From NCBI GenBank assembly GCA_018268315.1, contig JAFDWU010000005.1, positions 62,001 through 126,000 of the forward strand: a stretch of 64,000 nt of DNA. Reading direction: 5' to 3'. This document shows, one piece after another, positions 5,223 through 59,480 of the stretch. A program made the position numbers and the translations under genes. The notes beneath the pieces were generated by a model, which was not told the origin of the DNA, ran no database searches, and saw only the letters and a program-made list of their open reading frames with translations. The DNA comes from Armatimonadota bacterium. GTDB lineage: Bacteria; Armatimonadota; Fimbriimonadia; Fimbriimonadales; Fimbriimonadaceae. The stretch's first letter is position 1. Each line of letters starts with the position of its first letter.

Positions 5223-5670
5223 CATGTGTGAACTGTGCGGCTATGCTCCCTCGGGCTTGAATCCTCAAACATGCCTTGAGGCTCGCAATGAGCTTTTCCT
5301 CTACACGCTTGCCCAACCAAGACCGCCGTTCATCCACCAGCTTGCGGTGGATGCGTATTCTGCGCAGCACCTGAGGGAGAACGCGACGCCGATTACCAAG
5401 CTCTTTCCGCTGATGGGGCTATTTATGGTCTGCGAGCAAGGCGCGACGGGGCTGGAAGTACAGATGGCGCACAAGCGGAAGGCGGGCGATGTTGACCGCA
5501 AGAACTGGCCTAACCCGCCGATTCACCCTTCCCCTTTCCTAATGAATGTCGGCGATGTCTTGCGGGAGACCGAAGGATTGGACCGCGACCGGGCAATTCA
5601 CAAGTGGGTGGTAAGCACTTGGGCATCGTACGCTTACATTCACGACATTATTCGCGCGTTTTGTAGTTAG
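5215..5670 (+). CDS. DUF5946-like protein with N-terminal CxxCG
   Basis: A 151-residue protein with an N-terminal zinc-knuckle-like CELCG and a further Cys near residue 20, then a helical core (FIHQLAVDAYSAQHL, ITKLFPLMGLFMVCEQG) and a C-terminal tail WVVSTWASYAYIHDIIRAF. The pattern fits the uncharacterised DUF5946 family, assigned from memory of the family's CxxCG, HQLxVDxYxxQH and C-terminal features. The start may be GTG at 5215 (overlapping the YjbR stop) or ATG at 5224. It is probably translated from the same mRNA as the YjbR-like gene. Role unknown. Confidence 0.6.
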   Translation: MNDMCELCGYAPSGLNPQTCLEARNELFLYTLAQPRPPFIHQLAVDAYSAQHLRENATPITKLFPLMGLFMVCEQGATGLEVQMAHKRKAGDVDRKNWPNPPIHPSPFLMNVGDVLRETEGLDRDRAIHKWVVSTWASYAYIHDIIRAFCS

Positions 5671-57484: not shown

Positions 57485-58024
57485 ATGCAAATAACGCGCG
57501 GGATTTCGGTCGTCCTGGCCTTCGCGTTGCTCGCATCTTACGGCGTCACAGCACGCGCGCAGGATGAGAACACGCCTGAGGCTAAGGCAAGAAAGGCAAT
57601 GGTTGGCAAGATGGCGCCAGCCCTAGCGGTTGACCAATGGGTCAACAGCGGTGGCAAGCCACTTTCGCTCGAGAGCCTTCGAGGCAAGGTAGTCGTCCTT
57701 GATTTCTTCACCTTCTGGTGAGGGGGTTGTGTGGCTTCCATGCCCGAGAACAATCGGGTTTATGGAAGGTACAAGGGCCAAGGTTTGGTCCTTATAGGAG
57801 TTCATATCGATCCGGACGTCAAGCAACGCAACGCTATCATCAAGCAGCAAGGCGTGACTTACCCAGTGTGCGAAGACAAGTTCGCAGACAAGCCGAACGG
57901 GGTCGGGAGGGCCTATCACATCGAGTACATCCCGACGATCTTCGTTATCGATAAAACCGGCAAGATCATCGCCGTTGATCCACCGAAGCTCGAAGAGGCG
58001 GTTAAGCAAGCGCTCGCCAAGTAG
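57485..58024 (+). CDS. exported TlpA-like redoxin with in-frame TGA (probable selenocysteine at residue 79)
   Basis: A 179-residue protein when the TGA at 57719-57721 is read as Sec. It has a signal peptide (QITRGISVVLAFALLASYGVTARAQ), then a thioredoxin-like fold: SLESLRGKVVVLDFFTFW, the redox site U-G-G-C (Sec79, Cys82), VASMPENNRVYGRYK, GLVLIGVHIDPD, and the cis-Pro strand YIPTIFVIDKTGKIIAVDPP, running to a normal end. In TlpA/ResA relatives the same position is Cys, used for periplasmic disulfide reduction. The frame on both sides is intact and ends at TAG. A SECIS-like hairpin follows the TGA. A nonsense mutation or base error remains possible; selA, selB, selC and selD are not in this window. 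Confidence 0.72.
57736..57767 (+). promoter_or_regulatory. bacterial SECIS-like hairpin
   Basis: TTCCAT (57736-57741) pairs with ATGGAA (57762-57767). Inside, CCCGA (57743-57747) pairs with TCGGG (57754-57758), with a small G/UUU internal bulge and apical loop GAACAA (57748-57753). The loop begins with G, 26 bases after the TGA. These match the known bSECIS rules (stem-loop 16-37 bases past UGA, a G in the first two loop positions). It lies in coding sequence. Confidence 0.62.
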
Positions 58025-58711: not shown

Positions 58712-59152
58712 TTACGAGCAGCATGCCTTCTGATCGCCTGCGCAGCAGGCGGTAGCTTGGTCGCCCGCGCAGCACGAGATGGCAGGGTTGTCATTGAGGA
58801 TCGTGTAGATTTCCCACATGTTCTTGTCCGGATCGGAAACCCAAAACTTGTCCTGCGTGGCGTGACAGCAGTCGACACTTTCTTCCACCTGGGTTGTCAG
58901 GCCAGCCTTCTCCAACCGCTCCTTCGCGCGCCAGACCTCTTCGGATGAGTCGACCAAGATGCCAAGGTGATTCAGCGAACCTTGCCCACCGGGCTTATGC
59001 TGATTGAGAGCAAGCTTAAGCGCCGGCAGCTCAACATCGAAGTTGGCGTAGCCTTCCCTGACCTTGTGAGGCGGCTGGCCGAAGAACGCCTCATACCACT
59101 TGGTGGATTTTTCAACGTCGGTCACGTTCAATGAAAGGTGTGTCTTAGTCAT
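58712..59152 (-). CDS. arsI: ArsI/CadI-family VOC metalloenzyme with Cys-rich tail
   Basis: A 146-residue VOC protein of the ArsI (C-As lyase)/CadI family. Features: THLSLNVTDVEKSTKWYEAFFGQPPHKV, GSLNHLGILVDSSEEVW, and VDCCHATQDKFWVSDPDKNMWEIYTIL with the conserved vicinal Cys pair that binds trivalent organoarsenicals. ArsI cleaves the carbon-arsenic bond of MAs(III) using Fe(II) and oxygen. The C-terminal tail has CCAGDQ twice and ends in CCS, unusual extra thiols. Start ATG 59152 has AGGAG seven bases upstream. It overlaps arsR, forming one operon. Confidence 0.83.
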   Translation of the reverse strand: MTKTHLSLNVTDVEKSTKWYEAFFGQPPHKVREGYANFDVELPALKLALNQHKPGGQGSLNHLGILVDSSEEVWRAKERLEKAGLTTQVEESVDCCHATQDKFWVSDPDKNMWEIYTILNDNPAISCCAGDQATACCAGDQKACCS

Positions 59153-59480
59153 GGTTTTCTCCTGATGCCAACCTTGTCGCATAGCTTGCCAATTCAAGCA
59201 GCGTTTCCTGATTCAAACGACAAAGGGCGGCGGTGCCCCGCTTCTCCATTCGAATCAGACCCGCAGCTTCAAGCTCGTGTAAGTGGTGCGAGATCGTTGA
59301 GTTGATCTTCTCCGCGCCAGTTACGTGGCAGCAAACTTGACCCGCTGTCGGGCTCTCCACGTCGCCACTTTCGCGAATGGTCGCCTGAGCGCAGCAACAG
59401 GTCGAAAGGAATCCTATGATTTGCAGTCGAGTTGGGTCGCCAAGCGCCTTGCAAGCTTTGCCGAACGTTTCGTTGTTCAT
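59145..59480 (-). CDS. arsR: ArsR-family arsenic-responsive repressor
   Basis: A 111-residue winged-helix repressor: ACKALGDPTRLQIIGFLSTCCCAQATI near residue 9-36, a recognition helix INSTISHHLHELEAAGLI near residue 60-77, and wing MEKRGTAALCRL. Cys residues near 29-31 (CCC) and 49-50 (CC) are likely As(III)/Sb(III) ligands, placed as in some ArsR variants. Release from the operator on binding As(III) would induce arsR-arsI. It overlaps arsI by eight bases. TAGAAT lies seven bases upstream of the ATG. Confidence 0.88.
   Translation of the reverse strand: MNNETFGKACKALGDPTRLQIIGFLSTCCCAQATIRESGDVESPTAGQVCCHVTGAEKINSTISHHLHELEAAGLIRMEKRGTAALCRLNQETLLELASYATRLASGENHD

Follow-up and report, generated by a model that had tools for sequence, protein, structure and literature searches.

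A redoxin gene interrupted at its catalytic center by a lone in-frame TGA raises the question of whether that codon terminates translation or specifies selenocysteine (Sec). Such a gene lies on the forward strand of the stretch of Armatimonadota DNA analyzed here (the window, 64,000 nucleotides in its entirety), at positions 57485-58024. Translated from its ATG to a TAG stop (58022-58024), it has as its sole interruption the TGA at 57719-57721, and when read through this codon it specifies a ResA/TlpA-like redoxin of 179 amino acids. The residues around the TGA, ...VVVLDFFTFWUGGCVASMPENN..., would place Sec at position 79 as the first residue of a CxxC-type motif with the form U-G-G-C. The original prediction of a single in-frame TGA at the CxxC of a complete TlpA-type redoxin is borne out in its coordinates, its frame and its FWUGGC motif. 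On sequence grounds, we consider it very nearly certain that 57485-58024 encodes a selenoprotein in which the UGA at codon 79 is Sec, because the full Sec machinery of the genome, the conserved TGA/Cys site, a covarying hairpin past the codon and the fold of the protein all point to it.

With Cys substituted for Sec, residues 40-170 of the product match both the AhpC-TSA family of Pfam (PF00578; 3e-19, 69.6 bits against a gathering cut-off of 26) and the Redoxin family (PF08534; 2.2e-16, 60.4 bits against a gathering cut-off of 26.6), and the solved proteins nearest to it in sequence are ResA-type thiol-disulfide oxidoreductases. The AlphaFold model has a mean pLDDT of 85.7 and is good except for the N-terminal 30 residues; among solved structures, it comes closest to a thiol-disulfide oxidoreductase from Bacillus, to DipZ (C-terminal domain) and to ResA. 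The codon for Cys82, the resolving residue of the UGGC motif, occupies 57728-57730, and that for the cis-proline of the thioredoxin fold, Pro150, occupies 57932-57934; both residues are invariant in our alignment A3, and the latter sits in the YIPTIF strand, which had been foreseen as the cis-Pro strand. The N-terminus, in the low-confidence part of the model, is hydrophobic and, judged by eye from the sequence, constitutes a probable signal peptide, MQITRGISVVLAFALLASYGVTARA (57485-57559), with an AxA-type cleavage site and predicted cleavage just before the residues QD. We think it likely that the protein functions as a thiol-disulfide oxidoreductase that is predicted to be exported. A search for conserved neighboring genes that would name a partner found none, and the redoxin gene seems to stand alone. 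On the minus strand of the window, 58712-59480 holds an ArsR-type regulator and an ArsI/CadI-family metalloenzyme, the tail of which is repeated and Cys-rich (CCAGDQ...CCAGDQ...CCS).

Among the 22 regions of the genome with the AhpC-TSA fold, 21 are stop-free, and only the 57485-58024 redoxin is interrupted. UGA decoding generally competes with termination, and this competition would favor a selenium-dependent switch, wherein the short product, or termination itself under low selenium, is biologically relevant. The abundance in the same genome of Cys-type redoxins of this fold, which could back up the Sec redoxin, is also in keeping with such a switch. However, the part of the protein encoded past the UGA is conserved, including the resolving Cys and the cis-Pro, and the 78-amino-acid product of termination would be without an active site; hence, we regard a biologically relevant switch as highly improbable.

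The distribution of TGA and Cys codons at this site was traced across the phylum. A first search, of 60 relatives, gave a list headed by homologs with exactly one TGA; a profile of these single-TGA homologs was then compared with 291 Armatimonadota genomes, and each locus was inspected. Including the window, 23 loci have a TGA at the residue-79 codon: 12 short forms, nine long forms of ~350 amino acids and two others (L079 and L144). The recurrence of TGA at the identical codon in the 22 loci besides the window is more than chance, and the other homologs have Cys at the same column. The alignment of homologs had been proposed as a check on the Sec assignment, and it speaks for it: residue 79 is either Cys or Sec, and stops are not scattered along the genes. 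One of the TGA loci comes from a genome of the same family, Fimbriimonadaceae (G127), that appears to be that of Fimbriimonas ginsengisoli Gsoil 348, the complete genome of which has been published (PMC4072686). Its Sec form is 66% identical in amino acids to the window redoxin before the TGA and 56% after it.

Several further loci came to light in this survey. L079 (G038) and L144 (G124) have their TGA at the CxxC position in the motifs GUGAC and WUGPC, respectively, and lie outside both Sec clades described below. At L083 (G042), the Sec redoxin is found near other small redoxin-like ORFs (around 5255-5527). A contig scan gave mostly distant redoxins; three of its loci, L064, L074 and L075, belong to Acidiferrales and Bryobacterales and are peroxiredoxin-like proteins with the TGA elsewhere, in a TSGU or TGGU motif (the TxxU type).

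Just 3' of the TGA, the transcript is predicted to form a hairpin that is a candidate SECIS element (57735-57768, plus strand), with a lower stem of 7 bp, a small internal loop, an upper stem of 6 bp and the loop GAACAA, which lies 26 nt from the UGA. The 62 bases starting at the TGA (57719-57780) fold with an energy of -29.6 kcal/mol (z -4.5), and among synonymous recodings of the 54-base segment, just 0.4% give a fold as good. The lower stem, which pairs columns 16-23 with 44-51 as counted from the T of the TGA, is common to nine short forms; across these nine homologs 90.3% of the cells are paired, and eleven cells are changed on both sides. The covariation of this stem is 0.493 against 0.193 in shuffles, none of the 500 shuffles being as high, and it is at most 0.09 when the stem is slid. 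The Sec form of F. ginsengisoli retains all eight stem pairs, and the Cys form from the genome G006 has two of the eight. In the three remaining short forms, the hairpin is another one, with 7 bp and a distance of 17 nt from the UGA; L079 and L144 each have a hairpin of 7 bp located 17 nt past their TGA. In the long-form Sec homologs, the 57 nt that follow the TGA showed no conserved hairpin; hence, the hairpin is not a feature shared by every TGA form. A comparison of the hairpin with Rfam gave nothing above threshold. As coded here, the bacterial SECIS rule from the literature does fit the window, but it fits 164 of 400 random positions as well; since the rule so coded separates Sec from random positions poorly, we rely on covariation.

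These comparisons bear directly on the idea that a recent nonsense mutation has left a decaying pseudogene, with the TGA acting as a real stop. The single window alone would permit such a mutation, and Cys is the usual residue at the site in the PDB and Pfam families. Yet the 22 other loci, spread over divergent genomes, have the TGA at the same codon in frames that are otherwise open, the protein sequence is conserved past the TGA, and the RNA stem in that region covaries, all of which leaves a pseudogene exceedingly unlikely. An error of sequencing or assembly that made the TGA from a TGC or TGT is just as hard to credit, given that the same TGA occurs in independently assembled genomes, including the apparent complete genome of F. 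ginsengisoli.

The genome to which the window belongs (2.8 Mb in nine contigs, 100% complete) codes for the complete Sec machinery, namely selA (473.9 bits), selB (366.2), selD (351.4), each above its curated cut-off, and a tRNA-Sec (selC; 75.3 bits) with the anticodon UCA. Hence, the search for selA, selB, selC and selD that had been suggested as a check on the prediction recovers all four. The selD gene (L016:1498-2484) itself has one in-frame TGA at the known place, in the motif GAGUASK, and is accordingly a Sec gene too, so that the genome has at least two such genes. The closest homologs of the formate dehydrogenase alpha subunit contain no in-frame TGA. Across the 291 Armatimonadota genomes searched, selA is found in 149 (138 above the cut-off). 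When only genomes at least 90% complete are considered, it is present in 14/14 of those with a close TGA form versus 99/180 of the others (Fisher p 3.6e-4, with relatedness not corrected for). The tRNA-Sec is present in 17 of the 20 genomes that carry a TGA form and absent from three, which are 61-73% complete. One genome, G035, has the tRNA-Sec and is without selA in an assembly that is 74% complete.

TGA is the stop codon of 14 of the 41 window ORFs of at least 200 amino acids and thus serves as an ordinary stop, in agreement with the claim made at the outset that it is not reassigned; several homologs with an in-frame TGA also terminate at TGA. A genome-wide reading of TGA as a sense codon (e.g., Trp or Cys), in favor of which there is nothing beyond the in-frame TGAs themselves, is therefore not the explanation and, with a tRNA-Sec in the same genome to read UGA, has a practically negligible probability.

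Returning to the selenoprotein reading, what is established about Sec decoding in bacteria and about enzymes of the thioredoxin fold suggests how the gene and its product might work. The hairpin just 3' of the UGA would recruit SelB carrying Sec-tRNA-Sec, whereupon the UGA at codon 79 would be decoded as selenocysteine instead of ending translation. The resulting ResA/TlpA-like thiol-disulfide oxidoreductase, probably exported, would deploy Sec79 as the nucleophile that attacks disulfides or takes electrons, with Cys82 then resolving the selenenylsulfide.

A tree of 43 redoxin domains, in which the bootstrap had not settled, unites the short Sec forms and two Cys forms in one clade (98/95), with the window redoxin as the sister of the Sec form from F. 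ginsengisoli (99/89). The long Sec forms (L027, L038, L077, L078, L102, L105-L107 and L109) make up a second clade (95/91), characterized by the motif WGFWUGPC, and L079 and L144 are placed among Cys forms; overall, the tree requires at least five changes between Sec and Cys. The Cys form of G006 is nested in the short Sec clade and comes from a genome that lacks both selA and tRNA-Sec. This locus (L022) and L021, a Sec form from G035, where tRNA-Sec is present, come from one genus. The contrast between G006 and G035 suggests that the Sec trait was lost recently, and the simplest reading of the G006 form is a change from Sec to Cys with loss of the machinery and the hairpin. On a larger scale, one could conceive that Sec moved into the TlpA-like redoxins of Armatimonadota several times independently—in the short exported clade, in the long clade and in at least two single cases—with the long clade decoding UGA without the covarying hairpin of the short clade, i.e., through a different or minimal SECIS. 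We put this forward tentatively, as a scenario more doubtful than probable.

Selenoprotein genes like that of the window redoxin are normally annotated as truncated, and its recognition would add one more phylum with a clear Sec-dependent redox protein. The Sec forms with their hairpin and machinery, set against the nested Cys form of G006, which lacks all three, constitute a natural experiment. The closest homolog, with a perfect stem, appears to reside in a cultured species, F. ginsengisoli, so that the insertion of Sec and the benefit it brings to an exported redoxin can be tested directly.

Among known systems, the closest in type are the UxxC selenoproteins listed in a 2026 review (PMC13188914), which include Prx-like thiol:disulfide oxidoreductases (PF00578), "Thiol-disulfide isomerase-like" proteins (cd02966) and "Redoxin family" proteins (PF08534). 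PMC9312934 likewise lists selenoproteins of the UxxC type from these Pfam families, and the Prx-like UxxC family has been known since 2005 or earlier (PMC1088965). The window redoxin shares with the families of the review their Pfam fold families and the position of Sec in U-x-x-C, a likeness at the level of family and motif; in contrast, the review names no Armatimonadota, and the motif seen here is FWUGGC or WUGPC. The published hallmarks of a selenoprotein, a conserved TGA/Cys pair, several Sec sequences and a hairpin, are found together in the window redoxin. ResA (PRK03147, Bacillus) and TlpA resemble it in having a single redoxin domain, exported in those proteins and probably so here, and ResA is both its best NCBIfam match and among its best solved structures. 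However, the window redoxin has Sec for the first Cys and no conserved neighborhood was seen around it; moreover, its score against the ResA equivalog PRK03147 (78.1 bits) is under the family cut-off of 170, and hence it is ResA-like and not ResA. It is likewise comparable to NF041054, a named family of ResA-like selenoproteins with a WAxxUGC motif, but its score there, 38.9 bits, is below the cut-off of 300, and it has FWUGGC instead of that motif. The long-form Sec redoxins of Armatimonadota have the TGA at the same codon, but are set apart by their length of ~350 amino acids, an N-terminal extension, a separate clade and the lack of a shared hairpin. In the open-licence literature, we found no report joining selenocysteine to Fimbriimonas or Armatimonadota, though it may have been published elsewhere; hence, the part of the original prediction that held such a protein to be new in this lineage is plausible. 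Since selenoproteins with this fold and a UxxC motif are already known elsewhere, the type of protein is not new. What is new here is the lineage, the presence of two Sec clades within it and a cultured species in which they can be put to the test.
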